Positions 8,996-62,167 of a stretch of 64,000 bases of DNA are shown here, piece by piece (within the stretch, counting starts at the first letter, position 1; each line of letters starts with the position of its first letter). The stretch spans positions 84,061-148,060 of the forward strand of contig NZ_JACAOY010000003.1 in NCBI RefSeq assembly GCF_013385985.1. The letters run 5' to 3'. The stretch comes from Pseudomonas sp. B6002. GTDB taxonomy: Bacteria > Pseudomonadota > Gammaproteobacteria > Pseudomonadales > Pseudomonadaceae. The notes beneath the pieces were generated by a model, which was given only the letters and a program-made list of their open reading frames with translations, had not been told where the DNA came from and did no database searches. A program made the translations under genes and the position numbers.

Positions 8996-9904
8996 ATGAG
9001 CGAGATGGATGACCTGGCTGCCTTTGCCGTTTTGATCGAAGCCGGCAGTTTTACCGTGGCGGCCGAGCAACTGGGGTGCAGCAAGGGCCAGTTGTCCAAA
9101 CGCATCAGCCAATTGGAAGCACAGTATTCCGTGGTGTTGCTGCACCGCACCACCCGCAAGCTCAGCCTCACCGCAGCCGGTGCTGCCTTGTTGCCCCAGG
9201 CCCAGGCGCTGGTGGTTCAGGTGGACCGAGCCCGTCAGGCATTGGCGCGGCTCAAGGACGATTTGGCCGGGCCGGTGCGTATGACGGTTCCGGTGTCATT
9301 GGGCGAAACCTTCTTTGATGGCTTGCTACTGGAGTTCACCAAGCGCTATCCCCAGGTGCAGATCGAACTGGAGTTGAACAACAACTATCGCGACCTGGCG
9401 CGGGATGGGTTCGATTTGGGGGTACGTTCGGGGGCGATCGAAAACGAGCGACTGGTGGCCAAGCCGCTGCTGGCCTGGCATGAGATGACCTGCGCCAGCC
9501 CGGCCTACCTGGAACAGCATGGCGAGCCGCAGACCCCGGCGGACCTGGCCGCCCACACCTGCCTGCTCAACAGCCATTACAGCGGGCGTGAAGAATGGCT
9601 GTATCACCAACAGCATGAGCTGCTGCGGGTGCGGGTCAGCGGCACGTTTGCGTCCAACCACTACAACCTGTTGAAGAAGGCCGCACTGGTGGGGGCGGGA
9701 ATTGCGCGCCTGCCGTCCTACGTATTACCTGCGGAACTGGCTGACGGTCGATTGCGCTGGCTCCTGCGCGACTATCAGACACGGAGCATGCCGATGTACC
9801 TGGTTCACCCTTACCTGGGAGGGCTGCCTCGGCGCACCCAGGTCCTGGCCGATTATCTGGTGGACTGGTTCAAGCGCAGCGGCGAGGCCCTCGACCGCCT
9901 TTAA
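8996..9904 (+). CDS. LysR-family transcriptional regulator
   Basis: 302 residues. The N-terminal winged helix-turn-helix (LAAFAVLIEAGSFTVAAEQL, then KGQLSKRISQLEAQY, about residues 7-45) and LHRTTRKLSLT are typical. The C-terminal effector domain belongs to the CrgA/PA-type LysR branch. The ATG at 8996 (GGAAAC upstream) starts at the conserved MDDLAAF. Divergent from the SDR gene, which is its likely target. Its stop overlaps the last four bases of the DoxX gene on the other strand. Confidence 0.93.
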   Translation: MSEMDDLAAFAVLIEAGSFTVAAEQLGCSKGQLSKRISQLEAQYSVVLLHRTTRKLSLTAAGAALLPQAQALVVQVDRARQALARLKDDLAGPVRMTVPVSLGETFFDGLLLEFTKRYPQVQIELELNNNYRDLARDGFDLGVRSGAIENERLVAKPLLAWHEMTCASPAYLEQHGEPQTPADLAAHTCLLNSHYSGREEWLYHQQHELLRVRVSGTFASNHYNLLKKAALVGAGIARLPSYVLPAELADGRLRWLLRDYQTRSMPMYLVHPYLGGLPRRTQVLADYLVDWFKRSGEALDRL

Positions 9905-10386
9905 CGATAGCGACGTGCGATCAGATGATCGAGGGACAGGCAGCCCGGGCCCTTGGCAACCAGCAGCAATAATAAGGCGATCCAGGTGCCGTGGGTCGGG
10001 TAGGCGTCCGGGTACACGAACAACTGAATGGTCAGGGTCATGCCGATCAGCGCCAAGGCTGAGAAGCGGGTGGCAAAGCCCACCAGGATAAGCACCGGGA
10101 AAAAGTGCTCGGCAAACGCCGCCATGTGCGCGGCCACTTCTGGCGACAGCAACGGCACGTGGTATTCGCTGCGAAACAGCGGCAGTGTCGACGCGGCCAG
10201 CCGCGGTTCTCCGAGTTGGAAGGTGCCGCTGATCAGATCGATGGCAAAGCCTTCAACTTTGGTCTGCCCGGACTTCCAGAACACCGCCGCAATCGAAAAG
10301 CGTGCGAGAAAGGCGATCAGGCTGTAGGGGATTTTTTCAAACAATGCGATGGCCCGTTTGATCAGGCACGTTGGGGATGCGTTCAT
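9901..10386 (-). CDS. DoxX-family membrane protein of the bufferin operon (BufD/HvfX-like)
   Basis: 161 residues with four hydrophobic segments (near residues 20-40, 85-105, 110-125 and 130-150) and the DoxX pattern ARFSIAAVFWKSGQTKVEGF. Last gene of a tightly coupled operon; its ATG overlaps the stop of the DUF2063 gene (ATGA). In described bufferin clusters a DoxX protein sits in the inner membrane and is proposed to handle redox or export steps of the modified peptide; that role is inferred here from gene order. Confidence 0.88.
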   Translation of the reverse strand: MNASPTCLIKRAIALFEKIPYSLIAFLARFSIAAVFWKSGQTKVEGFAIDLISGTFQLGEPRLAASTLPLFRSEYHVPLLSPEVAAHMAAFAEHFFPVLILVGFATRFSALALIGMTLTIQLFVYPDAYPTHGTWIALLLLLVAKGPGCLSLDHLIARRYR

Positions 10387-11159
10387 GGCGATACCTTTTC
10401 TTCCAGGTGCAAATGAGTGATGGCGTCGTGGCTGATCAGCACCGTGAGGCACTGGTGCAGGTCGAATTCGGCCGAGGCTTCCAAGGCGTGTGTCACGGCC
10501 ATTTCCAATTCGGTGCCGTGGCTGAGGCTGTCGATAAACGCGACCGAACCCGCGTCAATCGTGAACACCTTGACCGCCAGGCCCTGGCGTAGCACCAGCG
10601 CTCCTTGAGCGTGCCAGGGGTTCAGCGTGGCCATGGCACCCTCGGTCTGGTGGGCAGCCCACACCGCCACGACCGCATAGGCAGAATTCAAGGTGGCCAG
10701 GGACGGATGCAGTTGCAGGCGCAGTTTTCCCAGGTCGGTTTGACCTTGCAGGGCTTGAAGCACGGCCTGCTGATCCAGCGATGGTGTATCGGCCGCGTGA
10801 TAAGCACGCACCCGCAGGCGCTCAAGCCTCGCCACGTCAGCCAGGTAGGGCACGCTGGCGGCGGGTTCAAAGTCCTGGATGAACGCGGGGAAGGCGCTGC
10901 CATACTCACTGATCAGCGGTTGGGTGGGCGGGCATGCCTGTACAAACAGGCCGGCCATCGCGCGGAAAAACGCCTCGCCGACCAATTGAAAGGTCACGGG
11001 GTAGGCCGTTACCAGTGCATTGATCAACGAGCTGTGAACGTTGTTGCGATACACCGCAAAACGGCTGGCCGGGTCGGCGCCGTTGCTGCTGAACAGGCCG
11101 TCGGGGCAGGGCAGGTCAGGCGATATCAACGCATTGGCAAACGCTTCATGCAGGCTCAT
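10383..11159 (-). CDS. DUF2063 protein, putative MNIO partner (BufC/HvfC-like)
   Basis: 258 residues. The N-terminal helical DUF2063 domain ([17 protein letters not shown], then [20 protein letters not shown], about residues 4-55) is typical of partners of DUF692 enzymes, which recognise and present the substrate peptide. The C-terminal half is a mixed domain of unknown role. The start at 11159 gives an ATGA overlap with the upstream DUF692 gene, so the two are probably translationally coupled. No catalytic motif is seen. Confidence 0.88.
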
Positions 11160-12034
11160 GGGTTCACCTGCGCCAGGTGCCATTCGGCGTGTTGGGCTTC
11201 AGCCAGCAGCACGCTGAACGCCGGCACCTGGTTGTCCCTTTCGATTAACGTGGCCACCGGGCCGGTCCGTGCCAGTACCTGCTCGTACAGCTGCCATACG
11301 GCGTTGTCGATGGGCGCGCCATGGTCATCAATCAACAGTCGGTCGCCCAGGCTGTCGGTATCTTCGGCAAAGCCTGCCAGATGAATCTCACCCACAGCGT
11401 GCAAAGGCAACGCATTGATGTAGGCCAGCGGATCGCGCTGATGGTTGATGCACGACACGTAGACGTTATTGACGTCCAGCAACAGGCCGCAGCCGGTGCG
11501 ACGGATGATCTCGCTGATGAAGTCAGTCTCATCCAGGGTCGAGCGCTCGAACTGCAGGTAAGTCGACGGATTCTCCAGCAGCATTGGCCGCTTGAGGGTG
11601 CTTTGCACCTGGTCGATGTGTTCGCACACCCGGTTCAGGGTCGACGCGTCATACGCCAGGGGCAGCAAGTCATTGAGAAACACCGGGCCATGGCTGGACC
11701 AGGCCAGGTGTTCGGAAAAAGAGTGGGGTTGATAGCGCTCGATCAACGTGGCCAGCCGCCCCAGGTGCTCACGGTTCAACGGGCCTTCACCGCCGATGGA
11801 CAGCCCCACGCCGTGCAGCGACAGAGGGTACTGCTCGCGAATCAGCCCCAGGTAGTGATGGAACGGGCCGCCGGCCACCATGTAGTTTTCGGCGTGCACT
11901 TCAAAAAAACCGATGTCGGGTGAGGTCTCGAGCACTTCGCTGAAGTGCTCGTTCTTCAGCCCCAGCCCGGCCCTGTAGGGGAGGCCGGGCACCTGAGCCG
12001 GTGAGACGGTGTGTTGGGGTGAAAGCGTCATCAT
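11156..12034 (-). CDS. DUF692/MNIO multinuclear iron oxidase (BufB/HvfB-like)
   Basis: 292-residue TIM-barrel enzyme of the multinuclear non-heme iron oxidative family. The metal-ligand blocks are visible in order: [55 protein letters not shown] and IDDHGAP. Known family members oxidise cysteines of a short precursor into thiooxazole or related heterocycles. Here the substrate is presumably the DUF2282 peptide encoded 23 bases upstream. Either of two adjacent ATG codons (12034 or 12031) could start the protein. Confidence 0.93.
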
Positions 12035-12057
12035 CAGTACTCAGGTTGCGGGTTGAA

Positions 12058-12354
12058 TCAGGACTTGGCAGTGAAGGCGGCTTCCTGGCCGAAACCGGTC
12101 GGCGAGGTGGAGCTTGGCGTCTTGGCGCAGGTGCCGGCCGGGACCAGTTTCCAGGCATTGGCCTGGTCTTTGACTTTCGAGGTGCCGGCGCAGGAAGTGC
12201 CAGCGCCAGCGGCGCAATCGTTCTTGCCGGCTTCAGCGACGCCGAAGCACTTCTGCATGTCGTCGGCGGCGTGGGCGGTGGTGGTCAGGGCGGACAGGCT
12301 CAGGGCGGAACCCAGGGCCAGGACGAGGGTAGCGGCGGACAGTTTGGTGGTCAT
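12058..12354 (-). CDS. DUF2282 bufferin-type precursor peptide (BufA1-like)
   Basis: 98 residues: a Sec signal (cleavage after TTTAHA, about residue 29) and a mature part of about 69 residues with four cysteines at 36 (MQKCFGVA), 47 (KNDCAAG), 55 (TSCAGTS) and 76 (AGTCAK). This is the DUF2282 pattern. In bufferins the two central cysteines are converted by the MNIO enzyme, and the exported peptide binds copper. First gene of the operon, with GGAG before the ATG. The family assignment is firm; copper binding is transferred from described relatives. Confidence 0.92.
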
Positions 12355-18484: not shown

Positions 18485-18553
18485 TCATCGCAGGCAAGCC
18501 AGCTCCCACATTTGAAATGCATTCCAAGTGTGGGAGCTGGCTTGCCTGCGAAG
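18485..18553. repeat. REPIN at the 3' end of the tubulin-like gene
   Basis: ATCGCAGGCAAGCCAGCTCCCAC and its inverse GTGGGAGCTGGCTTGCCTGCGA, spaced by about 22 bases; the second arm ends 14 bases past the stop of the tubulin-like gene. The arms point outward compared with most other REPINs in this window. Confidence 0.88.
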
Positions 18554-18566
18554 GGCGCGCCTCGGT

Positions 18567-20744
18567 CTAGGCGGTCTTGCCGGTATGGTTGTTCAACGAG
18601 ATAACCTTGGTCTTGCCAATCCGGTGACGGTAAATCTCGCGCAGGTACTTGATCGACTTCTTCACGCAATCCCGTGACAGGCGAATGTCATTGATCGACA
18701 CGAACTTCTCTTTGTCGTTGATCAGCTCGCGGTACTTCTTCTCGTACATCGGCTTGATCGCATACCAGTTGGTGTCGAGGATCTTCGCCGGGTTTTCAAA
18801 CTCGTTGAGCAATTCGTCGATACGGTCTTCGTCGAAGTCCTCGTGGATGATGAAATCCAGGATCGAGTTGTCCAGCGTGTCGTCGAAACGGTACGGGTTG
18901 CGCGCAAAGCAGCGTTTGATGAACGCCACGATCAAGGTCAGGAAATCATCCGACAGGCACGGGCTTTTAGCGATCAACGTGGTCAGCGACAGGTTGGCCG
19001 ACGCACCGATCACTAACGCATAACGCTTGAGCGTGGTGTTGGGGAACAGGCTGTTGAGGTGGGTCTTGAGCCGGTTCAGGTCCATGTAGGACAGCTTGTA
19101 GTCCTTGGGCAGCGAGACGATCGACACCACCGACGAGCAGTTCTTGAAGAAGTGCAGGTCGTGCAGCGCGGCGGCGTCGTAGCCGGAATTCTTGTATTGC
19201 TCCAGGGACGCCTTGTAGCGCTTGGACTCGATCGGCAACAGGCTGATGCCCTCGATAGCCTGGGTGACCTTGTTGAAGTGCGGCAGGTCGATGGAGCGGA
19301 AGAACAGGTCATCGATGTTCAGGCGCTGTGGCTCTTTGTCGAACACCTTGAACTTGTCGTTGGACGGTGCCGGGGTTTCCGGCACCACAGACTCGGCGTA
19401 GGCAATCGCGACCGGGCCGGCCAGGCTCATGAACAGGTCGTTGGCGTCCAGGCGGATGGTCTCGCCAATGTCGATGCCCGCACGCCTGAAGTAGTTCTGG
19501 TCGTAGTCGGTGGTCACGGCCTGGGCCGTGAGGATGTTGAAGATCTGCTGGGAGATGTACTGGTTGGCGTGTTTTTCCATGGCATTGACGTCAATGTTCT
19601 GGATGTTGCCGTCATCGCTTTCTTCGGCGTAACGCATGATGTCGTTGGAAATCAGCATCATGGCGTTCCACGGCCGGATACGCCCCTTCACGCTGGCTTC
19701 GCTGGTGTCTTCATTGGCAAAGTTGTACGAGAAATCCCATTCTTCCGACAGGTATTTGCACAGCAGTCGCCCGGCGTTGATGTGCAGCGCCTCGGACATT
19801 TCACTGCGGTGATCGGAAATATTCGGCAATACGCAGATACCGCTGGTGAAGATCGGCTCGAACACAAACGCGTGGCCGCTCTTGCTGTCATGCTCGTCGG
19901 CGGGCTTGGTGTCGAACGTCTTGTTCATGTACGAGTGCTGCTGGGCCAGACCGAACTCCGAGGCCATGCCCGAACCGGTACCGCCGCCGGCGCTGAAGAT
20001 CGAGAAGTACAGGCGCGACTGGTTGGCCTTGATGCCGCAGGAGTCGATCAGGTACGAGTGGATCATCTTCCAGTCGGGGCTGGAAAAACGCTGGGTGTCT
20101 TTATTCAGGATAATCTTGGCCAGGTACTGGCCGAGGATCGGTGCGTTACCGGCACCACCGGCATGGACTTCCGAGAGGTCCATGATTTTCATTTTGCTGT
20201 AGTCGCGCAAAAAGCCGCTTTTTTCGCCCTTGCGCGAGAAACGGATACGCCCGGCGATGTCCTTGTCCAGGTCGCCCAGCATCACCAGCGGTTCCACCAG
20301 GAATACCGGTTTACTGGCCTTGCCGCCGCCCAGGCGCAGGTTGTTACGGATCCATTGGGCCGGGCTGTAGCCCTTGTCCTGCGACTTGTCTTCGTTGCTG
20401 AACTCGTTCAGGTAGAACTTGCGTGCGTTGTACACCAACTCCGCCACGTCCAGCGCGATATTGGAGCCGCAACGGCCAAGGCCGATCAGGCACACCGAAG
20501 GGAATTCCTGCTCGTTGCGCGGATCGTTGTCGCCTTCCAGGTGAGGCAGGCGCGGGAACACCATGTCGCGCAGGCCGTCGAGGTTGTCGAGGATGCGGTC
20601 GGTGTTGGTTTCGGTGAAGTACAGGTATTGCTGGGTGGCCAGCGGGCGGGCGCTGCTCAATGACTTGGAACTTGAGGGTTTTTCCGCAGGAGCTGTCGGC
20701 AACACGTCGGAGATTACGGTGGCAGAGTTATTGTTGGAAGTCAT
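18567..20744 (-). CDS. Tubulin/FtsZ-superfamily GTPase-like protein, unknown role
   Basis: 725 residues, far longer than FtsZ (about 390) or phage PhuZ (about 315). Residues 1-36 are Ser/Ala-rich and probably disordered. A Rossmann-like start SVCLIGLGRCGSNIALDV (83-100) matches the T1 loop; HAGGAGN (194-200) is a further Gly loop; FSAGGGTGSGMASEFG (250-265) is the tubulin/FtsZ signature GGGTGSG; HINAGRLL (321-328) lies where the base-contact Asn is expected. RLDANDL (431-437) resembles the FtsZ T7 loop NxDxxD, keeping both acidic residues. The last 280 residues match nothing I know. ATG 20744 is preferred over an in-frame TTG at 20774. Not the cell-division ftsZ: no mur/ftsA neighbours. It stands alone. 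Confidence 0.85.
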   Translation of the reverse strand: MTSNNNSATVISDVLPTAPAEKPSSSKSLSSARPLATQQYLYFTETNTDRILDNLDGLRDMVFPRLPHLEGDNDPRNEQEFPSVCLIGLGRCGSNIALDVAELVYNARKFYLNEFSNEDKSQDKGYSPAQWIRNNLRLGGGKASKPVFLVEPLVMLGDLDKDIAGRIRFSRKGEKSGFLRDYSKMKIMDLSEVHAGGAGNAPILGQYLAKIILNKDTQRFSSPDWKMIHSYLIDSCGIKANQSRLYFSIFSAGGGTGSGMASEFGLAQQHSYMNKTFDTKPADEHDSKSGHAFVFEPIFTSGICVLPNISDHRSEMSEALHINAGRLLCKYLSEEWDFSYNFANEDTSEASVKGRIRPWNAMMLISNDIMRYAEESDDGNIQNIDVNAMEKHANQYISQQIFNILTAQAVTTDYDQNYFRRAGIDIGETIRLDANDLFMSLAGPVAIAYAESVVPETPAPSNDKFKVFDKEPQRLNIDDLFFRSIDLPHFNKVTQAIEGISLLPIESKRYKASLEQYKNSGYDAAALHDLHFFKNCSSVVSIVSLPKDYKLSYMDLNRLKTHLNSLFPNTTLKRYALVIGASANLSLTTLIAKSPCLSDDFLTLIVAFIKRCFARNPYRFDDTLDNSILDFIIHEDFDEDRIDELLNEFENPAKILDTNWYAIKPMYEKKYRELINDKEKFVSINDIRLSRDCVKKSIKYLREIYRHRIGKTKVISLNNHTGKTA

Positions 20745-20949: not shown

Positions 20950-23229
20950 TCAGCGAATTGGCCTGACGATAGAGGCGGGGCCTACCCGTGTGGGGGAGGG
21001 GTCTTTGGGGGAGGGGACGTCCTTGTTGCCCTCCACGCTAAAAGGGTAGAGCGGGTTGCGCATCTGTATGCCTTGCATTACGCCGATGATGTCACTGGCG
21101 GGCACGGCCGGGCTCAGCAAGTACCCTTGAATGTAGTCGCAACCGTGTTTGAGCAGCAGGTCGAATTGCGCTTGGGTTTCCACGCCTTCGGTGACGACTT
21201 GCAGGTGCAGGGTGTGGGCCATGCCGATAATGGCCTGGACAATTTCGATGTCGGCGGTGGACTTGGGGATGTCCTGGATAAACGAGCGGTCGATCTTCAA
21301 GGTATTGAGGGGCAGGCGCTTGAGGTAGGCCAGGGAGGAATAACCCGTGCCGAAATCGTCGATGGCCAAAGACACGCCCAGCGAGCGAATTTGCCGCAAC
21401 AACGCCAGGGTGCTGCTGATATTGCCCATCAACGCGTTTTCGGTGACCTCCAGTTCCAGGCGGTTGGCGGCCACACCGGCGAAGCGCAGGGCGTCTTCGA
21501 TTTCATCGGCCAATTCGTCACGGGCCAGGTTCAGGGCCGAGCAGTTCACCGCCATGGTCAGTTCGGTGTAACCGCGATCCGACAGCAGGCTCAAGTCGTG
21601 GCAGGCCTGGCGCAATACCCAGTGATCCAGTTCGGCAATCAGCCCGTTGCTTTCGGCGATGCCGATGAAGCGGTCCGGGGCCAGCAAGCCGTGTTGCGGG
21701 TGCTGCCAGCGCACCAGGGCTTCCAGGCGGGTCACCTTGCCCAGCTTCATGTCAAAGATCGGCTGGTAGAACAGCACCAGTTCGTTGCGCGTGCGCAGGG
21801 CGGCGCGCAACTCTTCTTCCAGTTGCAGTTCGAGAAAGGCGCGGGTTTTCAGGTTGGAGCTGAAGAAGTTCAGGCTGTTGCGCCCGGTGTCCTTGGATTG
21901 ATACAGCGCTAGGTCTGCAGTTTTCAACAGCTCTTCGCAGGTCAGGCCGTCATCGGGAAACAGGCTGATGCCGATGCTGGTGGTCATTACCATGCGCCGC
22001 CCGGCCAGCTCGATCGGGTCCTTCATCCTTTGCATGATGCGCTGGGCCATGTGCCGCGCTTCATCGCGGTGATGGATGCTGATCAGGATGCAGAACTCAT
22101 CCCCGCCAAAGCGGGCGACCACGTCTTCATGGCTGCGCACCGAGCCCTTGATATGCCCGGCCAGCACGGTGAGCAGTTGGTCACCGGCGTCGTGTCCAAG
22201 GCTGTCGTTGATGCGTTTGAAGTGGTCGATATCCAGGAAGATTACCGCCATCATGCCGTGTGAAGCGGTTTTTTCGGCGAGTTTTTCCGCGAAGATCTGA
22301 TTGAAGCCCCGACGGTTGAGCAGGCTGGTCAGCGCATCGAAGTGCGCCACCTGTTGCAGCGAGGCTCGCGCCTGGTCGAGTTCACTGAGCAGGGCATTTA
22401 CCCGGCGCAGGTCGCGCTCCTTGTGCTGCAATTTTTTATCCGCCAAGGCTGCGCTGATGCTGCTACCGATCACCAATAACGTAATGACCGCCACCGACAA
22501 GCCCAGCTGAATCGGGTTGTTATCCACTGGCAATGACAGGTCCGCGCCATTGGGCACCAGCATCTGCATGGCGGCCATGCCGGTGAAGTGCATGCTCAGG
22601 ATGCCCGCGCCCAACACCAGGCTGGCGGCGTATTTGAGCAATTGATGAAACACACCGGAGCCGTTGCGCAGGTAGCTGGACAGCAGCAACGCCGCCAGGC
22701 TCGCGCCAATCGCAATGCCGACCGAGGCCATGAACAGTCCCGACTCGAAATACACCTGGGCCTGGGAGCGCATTGCCGACATGCCGACGTAGTGCATCAG
22801 CGCGATGCCAAGGCCCATCCATACCGAGGCCAACAGGTATTGATGGAACTTGAGCTGGGCGTGACTAAGGGTCTGCATGGCAAACAGCGATGCGATCAGG
22901 GCGATCAGCAGCGAGGCAAACGTGATGAGCAATTCGTAATGAATGGCAATCGGTGCCTGGAAGGCCAGCATGCTGATGAAGTGAGTCGACCAAATACCCC
23001 CGGCGAGGCACCCCGCACCCAGCCAGCGCCAGTGGCGGCGAGCGGTGGGGTCTTCCACATGGCCGACACGTTCGGCCATGTCCAGCGTGCCGAACCCGGC
23101 CGCACACGCCACCAGGTAAGCCAGTAGCACCAGAAAGGGGTTATGACTGCAATTGAGTAATAAGTGCCCGTTGTCTGGAAGGTCGGTAAAAAAATGCAGA
23201 CCAAGCCATTCCATAGCATGTCCCGTCAT
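20950..23229 (-). CDS. mucR: MHYT-GGDEF-EAL c-di-GMP protein, MucR-like
   Basis: 759 residues. The N-terminal MHYT sensor has about seven membrane segments with the repeats STHFISMLAF, MHYVGMSAM and MHFTGMAAM, which are proposed metal/gas ligands. The GGDEF domain has an intact RFGGDEF active motif (around residue 375) and NRRGF at its start. The EAL domain keeps LEALVRW and DDFGTGYSSL, so both synthesis and breakdown of c-di-GMP look possible. In P. aeruginosa MucR links c-di-GMP to alginate. An alternative ATG lies five codons downstream. Confidence 0.93.
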   Translation of the reverse strand: MTGHAMEWLGLHFFTDLPDNGHLLLNCSHNPFLVLLAYLVACAAGFGTLDMAERVGHVEDPTARRHWRWLGAGCLAGGIWSTHFISMLAFQAPIAIHYELLITFASLLIALIASLFAMQTLSHAQLKFHQYLLASVWMGLGIALMHYVGMSAMRSQAQVYFESGLFMASVGIAIGASLAALLLSSYLRNGSGVFHQLLKYAASLVLGAGILSMHFTGMAAMQMLVPNGADLSLPVDNNPIQLGLSVAVITLLVIGSSISAALADKKLQHKERDLRRVNALLSELDQARASLQQVAHFDALTSLLNRRGFNQIFAEKLAEKTASHGMMAVIFLDIDHFKRINDSLGHDAGDQLLTVLAGHIKGSVRSHEDVVARFGGDEFCILISIHHRDEARHMAQRIMQRMKDPIELAGRRMVMTTSIGISLFPDDGLTCEELLKTADLALYQSKDTGRNSLNFFSSNLKTRAFLELQLEEELRAALRTRNELVLFYQPIFDMKLGKVTRLEALVRWQHPQHGLLAPDRFIGIAESNGLIAELDHWVLRQACHDLSLLSDRGYTELTMAVNCSALNLARDELADEIEDALRFAGVAANRLELEVTENALMGNISSTLALLRQIRSLGVSLAIDDFGTGYSSLAYLKRLPLNTLKIDRSFIQDIPKSTADIEIVQAIIGMAHTLHLQVVTEGVETQAQFDLLLKHGCDYIQGYLLSPAVPASDIIGVMQGIQMRNPLYPFSVEGNKDVPSPKDPSPTRVGPASIVRPIR

Positions 23230-45796: not shown

Positions 45797-45884
45797 TGTG
45801 GGAGCTGGCTTGCCTGCGATAGGATCACCCTGGTCTGCCTGACAGACCGAGGTGCTTGCATCGCAGGCAAGCCAGCTCCCACAG
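45797..45884. repeat. REPIN after pcaC
   Basis: TGTGGGAGCTGGCTTGCCTGCGAT and its exact inverse ATCGCAGGCAAGCCAGCTCCCACA. Sits between convergent genes at the end of the pca block. Confidence 0.92.
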
Positions 45885-62093: not shown

Positions 62094-62167
62094 ATGTGGG
62101 AGCTGGCTTGCCTGCGATGGCGGTGTTGAATTCACAGACGCCATCGCAGGCAAGCCAGCTCCCACAT
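62094..62167. repeat. REPIN between acpH and olsA
   Basis: ATGTGGGAGCTGGCTTGCCTGCGAT and its perfect inverse with a short spacer, starting at the base after the acpH stop. Between convergent genes. Confidence 0.92.

Follow-up and report, generated by a model that had tools for sequence, protein, structure and literature searches.

What might a second protein of the tubulin superfamily be doing in a Pseudomonas cell that also possesses an ordinary FtsZ? The question is raised by a gene on a 64,000-nucleotide stretch of Pseudomonas sp. B6002 (assembly GCF_013385985.1, contig NZ_JACAOY010000003.1, positions 84,061 to 148,060; hereafter the window). Its 725-residue frame, which an initial annotation had given without a strand, is real and lies on the minus strand; a TTG further upstream of the ATG would be an alternative start giving 735 amino acids. 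We find that the gene fits the FtsZl2 family, described in 2010. Its product would be an accessory, non-division GTPase of the tubulin superfamily, most likely one forming a GTP-dependent polymer, and we lean towards this reading with modest assurance.

Conserved motifs and family assignment

The gene and its parts are arranged as follows:

18567..20744, minus: FtsZl2-type gene, 725 codons (725 amino acids), ATG at 20744
20460..20483, minus: T1-like glycine loop GLGRCGSN, residues 88-95
20130..20156, minus: T3-like GAGNAPILG, residues 197-205, similar to GAGANPEVG in the FtsZ of this genome
19968..19988, minus: T4 tubulin signature GGGTGSG, residues 253-259, the best match to FtsZ
19434..19454, minus: T7-like RLDANDL, residues 431-437, with D433 and D436
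18570..19316, minus: C-terminal region, residues 477-725, following a variable linker; no Pfam family above cut-off
18488..18551, no strand: inverted repeat of the repetitive extragenic palindromic (REP) type, in the gap that separates DUF2288 from the 3' end of FtsZl2

The glycine loop, the GGGTGSG signature and RLDANDL stand in the translation exactly where they had been placed before, and their conservation, which the initial annotation had named as a check that might overturn its claim, turned out to be very high. In a set of 62 homologues from five families, GGGTGSG, RLDANDL and GAGNAPILG are identical in all 62; GLGRCGSN is identical in 60, the remaining two differ at one position, and G-x-GRCGSN is kept in 62/62. 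The T1-, T4- and T7-like motifs are conserved and in order along the protein. By conservation the protein has four parts: residues 1-78 form a variable N-terminal tail, 79-455 the conserved GTPase part, which the T7-like loop closes, 456-476 a variable linker and 477-725 a C-terminal region that is again conserved. An alignment of 19 members (56-99% identity to the window protein) leaves 316 window positions invariant.

Selection on the two conserved parts is equally severe. Compared with seven Pseudomonas loci, the ratio of nonsynonymous to synonymous substitution rates (dN/dS) is 0.007-0.14 in the GTPase part, 0.004-0.15 in the C-terminal part and 0.20-0.57 in the N-terminal tail. The comparison with L133 is the highest (0.14 for the GTPase and 0.15 for the C-terminal part); against L001, L024, L030, L072, L138 and L134 both parts give 0.004-0.13. 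Hence the gene is real, functional and under strong purifying selection in both halves, and the constraint on the C-terminal region equals that on the GTPase part. A promoter scan detected nothing like a sigma-70 site ahead of the gene, and the upstream regions of FtsZl2 genes have no recognisable motif common across groups.

The protein had been proposed as possibly undescribed, which does not hold. According to Makarova & Koonin 2010 (PMC2875224), FtsZl2 was found by its GGGTG(S/T)G motif, with PFL_1302 of P. fluorescens Pf-5 as type member. It keeps T1, T4, T6, T7 and H7, unlike FtsZl1, in which T6-H7 could not be identified; it has no coiled coil, and its C-terminus of about 300 residues is without relatives. 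The same paper describes the family as confined to Proteobacteria, names Marinomonas among the genera holding it, reports no gene association and predicts that it forms filaments. Family, motif completeness and filament prediction are therefore in print. Relative to the text consulted, the additions made here concern the neighbouring genes, the way in which the gene has been lost and the constraint on the C-terminal region.

The window protein resembles PFL_1302 in its genus, in the GGGTGSG, T1 and T7-like motifs, in the long C-terminal region without known relatives, in its coexistence with an ordinary FtsZ and in having no neighbour conserved family-wide. The gene was assigned to FtsZl2, as a putative orthologue of PFL_1302, by genus, single copy and these described features. 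Among the matches listed in our literature search we found no functional study of FtsZl2 since 2010. In the part of PMC9871819 that was retrieved, FtsZ-like sequences of the Tubulin_2 type are set aside and 'FtsZl' is not mentioned. Four further matches, as seen in excerpt, were unrelated look-alikes: PMC6519391 (rpoS), PMC7327170 (the name of an FtsZ mutant), PMC4664251 (a strain name) and PMC10229592 (capB).

Relation to FtsZ and a probable polymer

Membership of the tubulin superfamily is supported by the motifs and by Pfam matches below threshold. Pfam Tubulin and Tubulin_2 each match 18 of the 19 alignment members, with E up to 0.1 and below cut-off. For the window protein, Tubulin_2/FtsZl1 (PF13809) scores 18.9 bits with the whole protein and 21.6 bits with the trimmed GTPase region (residues 78-455; E=1.5e-4, a weak similarity over residues 197-380) against a gathering cut-off of 27, while PF00091 scores 19.1 bits against 33. 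Long tubulin-like families of the Tubulin_2/FtsZl type had been mentioned initially as known in bacteria. Filing the protein under Tubulin_2/FtsZl1 is unwarranted because the curated PF13809 cut-off is not passed. A von Willebrand factor A (vWA) family, linked to FtsZl1, was not among the 16 window neighbours scanned against Pfam.

With FtsZ (PF00091) the protein shares GGGTG-x-G, the T3-like GAG-x-x-P and a D-x-x-D in the T7-like loop. Both acids of this loop are indeed kept, as had been noted: D433 and D436 have the same D-x-x-D spacing as T7 of FtsZ (N-V-D-F-A-D in the genome's own FtsZ). However, the two proteins differ in length (725 against about 400 amino acids), and the window protein has large inserts, no FtsZ_C match and a score below the PF00091 cut-off. 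That it might be a second division FtsZ, as the GGGTGSG signature could suggest, is very improbable: an ordinary FtsZ sits on another contig of the same genome, FtsZl2 is missing from 36/120 genomes of the genus, and FtsZ_C was not detected. A PF00091 search of 29 genomes, 15 of which hold FtsZl2, gave one FtsZ-sized match in each.

How might such a protein work? GTP would be bound through T1/T3/T4. Subunits might then assemble head to tail, with D433/D436 of the T7-like loop completing the GTPase site of the neighbouring subunit, and the conserved C-terminal region on its variable linker could serve to bind a partner or the membrane. The result would be a filament of accessory character, serving some conditional task in the envelope or in cell organisation, but not cell division and not plasmid or phage segregation. 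The weakest step is that this task might be tied to cyclic di-GMP (c-di-GMP) signalling, a link proposed because GGDEF-EAL genes recur near FtsZl2.

Several observations weigh against a polymer of this kind. In the T7-like loop the Asn of FtsZ T7 is replaced by Arg431. The profile comparison with FtsZ backed T4 only, with reversed controls coming close to the true scores or exceeding them. For the T4 block our home-made profile Smith-Waterman comparison found 0/100 shuffles as high, with a reversed control of 37.5 against 40.7. By hhalign, region 79-600 beat 60/60 shuffles and the GTPase part 57/60, and in both cases the reversed query still scored above the true one; hhalign also aligned the T3-like GAGNAPILG with GAGANPEVG of FtsZ at E=0.025, with a better reversed control (E=0.014). 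An alignment of T7 to FtsZ was unsupported by hhalign (49/60 shuffles as high) and by profile Smith-Waterman (95/100). Profile alignment gave no support beyond T4, and T7 is therefore assigned by motif order, by spacing, by conservation and by the description of the family in print.

In the C-terminal part no similarity to FtsZ was detected by hhalign, Pfam or profile Smith-Waterman, in agreement with the initial annotation. Residues 470-600 and 599-725 have no Pfam match above cut-off, and FtsZ_C was not matched in segment 470-600 of three homologues either; below threshold, the C-terminal segments gave Noc2 (E=0.0027, one homologue) and Topo-V HhH (E=0.0079). A likeness by eye of residues 487-600 to the FtsZ-type C-domain was dropped because none of the three methods supported it (50/60 shuffles as high by hhalign, 20/100 by profile Smith-Waterman). 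AlphaFold2 models were uninformative, with a mean predicted local distance difference test score (pLDDT) of 30.6 at full length (alignment A1, 31 rows) and 31.8 for residues 78-460 (A3, 28 rows), their inputs being near-identical Pseudomonas proteins (93-99% and 96-100% identical to the window's) drawn from 30 and 27 of 80 loci, respectively. Sequences of solved structures gave no match by phmmer up to E=1, nor by hmmsearch with alignment A2 up to E=10.

The main alternative would be a GTPase with a tubulin fold that has lost polymerisation and works in soluble form, as a GTP-dependent switch or scaffold whose effectors bind to the C-terminal region. The Arg in the T7-like loop, a C-terminal region conserved as much as the GTPase part and the undetected FtsZ-like C-domain all argue for it. 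However, D433 and D436 are identical in 62/62 homologues, which would be needless in a non-assembling GTPase, and characterised members of the superfamily form filaments according to the 2010 paper (PMC2875224). We regard such a switch as unlikely, though as a serious competitor, and keep the GTP-dependent polymer as the preferred reading.

Distribution and loss of FtsZl2

Is the gene a stable part of the chromosome or a recent arrival? Matches were counted at E<=1e-5 in overlapping genome samples taken within the phylum, with the own genome included where sampled. FtsZl2 is found in 84/120 genomes of the genus (84/116 among those at least 90% complete), 12/194 of the order, 2/369 of the class and 5/299 of the phylum. 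Four other families, which we call f14, f20, f26 and f82, hold matches in 2/6, 9/121, 29/48 and 1/3 genomes, respectively; f26 may be Marinomonas, which the 2010 paper lists as a holder of FtsZl2. There is one match per genome in the genus, except for G632 (two pieces), and no match in 36/120 genomes of the genus and 19/48 of f26, a few of them incomplete. For Pseudomonas we named 80 loci (L001-L080, all of this genus) from at least 562 relatives.

Patchy presence together with the superfamily resemblance might point to a DNA-segregation or phage cytoskeletal protein of the TubZ/PhuZ type stranded on the chromosome; TubZ and PhuZ are tubulin-superfamily proteins with a non-division role. In contrast to these, the window protein matches no phage (50,697) or plasmid (72,556) record at E<=0.01. 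A scan of viral contigs, which reaches close relatives only, gave no relative, and the best E in PHROGs was 0.12-0.25. In a midpoint-rooted tree of 62 proteins, f14, f20, f26 and the Pseudomonas set are separate groups; the lone f82 sequence is a long branch among Pseudomonas, where the tree program flagged its placement as unsure. Finally, an MHYT gene lies upstream in 75/80 named Pseudomonas loci and FtsZl2 therefore has a stable chromosomal place there. To this origin we give hardly any credence.

In 11 Pseudomonas loci that lack the gene, the MHYT-GGDEF-EAL gene adjoins DUF2288 and the bra/liv genes, FtsZl2 being gone from between them and the gap shrinking down to 103 bp. These loci, like the gene-lacking f26 loci, were chosen for carrying GGDEF-EAL and so say nothing about its rate of retention. 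FtsZl2 is a single-copy, loss-prone chromosomal gene, and as it is missing from many relatives it is dispensable there. Two further cases are consistent with decay: the gene is split on contig C620 of G632 and truncated in L132 (genome G624). In a near relative (L252, 5344-10093) FtsZl2 is reduced to short remnants, which adjoin a ToxA_N-type (PF20178) open frame, about 1400 codons long, that occupies the place of the gene.

An accessory stress or anti-phage gene would explain the patchy retention and the losses. The FtsZl2 protein, however, has no PADLOC match (of the neighbours, DUF2288 was scanned as well), and we consider this explanation improbable.

Gene neighbourhood and a possible link to c-di-GMP

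If not in division, where might FtsZl2 act? The claim that the gene is chromosomal and without division, plasmid or phage genes nearby is true of the 16 window genes around it that were scanned against Pfam, all of them belonging to ordinary families: DUF2282/MbnB/DUF2063/DoxX, a branched-chain amino-acid transporter, DUF2288, MHYT-GGDEF-EAL, CxxCxxCC, MFS, RapA, aminotransferase and YjgF families. One of these neighbours is a lead, and other features of the window are listed with it:

20950..23229, minus (same strand as FtsZl2): MHYT-GGDEF-EAL gene (c-di-GMP turnover, by Pfam), 205 bp upstream of FtsZl2
9901..12354, minus: DUF2282 small protein, MbnB/TglH/ChrH-type enzyme, DUF2063 and DoxX genes in a row (by Pfam)
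18488-18551 (just downstream of FtsZl2), 45798-45882 and 62096-62165: examples of REP-type half-site pairs

The gene row is a bufferin-type cluster for a ribosomally synthesized and post-translationally modified peptide (RiPP). The REP-type half-site occurs 17 times in the window (up to 3 mismatches; 0 in 100 shuffles), mostly as closely spaced inverted pairs.

A GGDEF/EAL gene lies within two genes of FtsZl2 in 29 of 54 scored loci, always on the same strand (29/29), and such domains occur in 4/328 of the more distant genes of these loci. This differs from the 2010 description, which reports no associated genes (PMC2875224). The scoring used a simple open reading frame (ORF) caller and ignored ORFs below 150 amino acids. 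L136, L226 and L227, in which the caller lost the gene, were left out; none is a known positive (no GGDEF motif flagged at L136, an MHYT match on another contig of G584 for L227, and, by elimination, no match in G672 for L226). L231 was scored as 'none' by a calling error, as genome searches place an MHYT gene directly upstream there.

The GGDEF-EAL proteins differ between lineages. In Pseudomonas the MHYT gene lies upstream on the same strand in 75 of the 80 named loci, leaving 5 without it; in 28 of the 75 no dehydrogenase-like gene intervenes (gaps of 176-281 bp) and in 47 one does, on the opposite strand. At L229, a Pseudomonas locus of different surrounding synteny, MHYT-GGDEF-EAL is directly downstream. 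In f26 an ammonium transporter-PAS-GGDEF-EAL gene adjoins FtsZl2, downstream in 12/17 rows of one clade (at L215 with a split frame) and upstream in 4/5 rows of its sister clade. The f82 locus has a PAS-GAF-GGDEF-EAL gene at a distance of two genes downstream. Between the two f82 genes, all on one strand, is a 640-residue protein without Pfam match (L131:5001-6923). The intervening Pseudomonas gene of the 47 loci is about 298 amino acids long, its dehydrogenase-like identity having been judged by eye; in other Pseudomonas clades it adjoins a second gene (about 260 amino acids) on the other side. No neighbour besides GGDEF-EAL recurs across lineages: liv/bra, DUF2288, RapA and dehydrogenase-like genes recur in Pseudomonas, but we did not see them at those loci of f14, f20, f26 and f82 that were viewed.

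Possibly, then, FtsZl2 and its GGDEF-EAL neighbour belong to one c-di-GMP pathway, with FtsZl2 as a cytoskeletal or effector component, a reading that overlaps with the polymer and that we judged separately. The differing neighbours (MHYT, ammonium transporter-PAS, PAS-GAF), their occurrence both upstream and downstream of FtsZl2 in f26 (and in Pseudomonas, if L229 is included), and the invariant strand all argue for it. Sorting the loci manually gives about 15 gene contexts, of which 5 contain GGDEF-EAL (binomial p of about 2e-4 at an assumed background rate of 4%, 3e-3 at 7%), but this test is post hoc, with grouping and the 4% rate set by hand. Other observations speak against a c-di-GMP role. 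GGDEF/EAL is missing in 25/54 loci (f20 9/9, f14 2/2, f26 7/23, Pseudomonas 7/19 including the miscalled L231), and an opposite-strand gene separates the pair in 47/80 Pseudomonas loci. Co-occurrence is absent in f26, where the transporter-GGDEF-EAL gene is found in 25/29 genomes with FtsZl2 and 15/19 without (p=0.70). In Pseudomonas the MHYT gene is found in 71/84 genomes with FtsZl2 against 22/36 without (p=0.008), a difference confounded by ancestry; these tables were tallied by hand, 7 genomes being placed by elimination, and G664 (46% identity), G570 and G584 (the latter two on other contigs) are counted among the 71. The GGDEF-EAL gene is also often kept in genomes without FtsZl2, as at L240 and L242 (f26), where transporter-GGDEF-EAL stands at its usual place. 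Of the two genes, GGDEF-EAL has the look of a resident and FtsZl2 that of a guest. We treat the adjacency as a post hoc lead, and the pathway role seems doubtful to us.

In its most specific form this idea would be a tubulin-type filament in c-di-GMP signalling, a dedicated GTP-driven polymer that either is under the control of a GGDEF-EAL sensor or serves to position it, the type of sensor (MHYT, ammonium-transporter or PAS-GAF) varying by lineage. We consider so specific a scheme a long shot. The recurring GGDEF-EAL neighbours supply a concrete and testable hypothesis, and the absence of FtsZl2 from many relatives suggests that its deletion would be viable. In conclusion, a strongly conserved second protein of the tubulin superfamily is kept in most sampled genomes of a heavily studied genus. 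If its filament did act in c-di-GMP signalling, a bacterial cytoskeleton would be tied to the switch from motile to sessile life.
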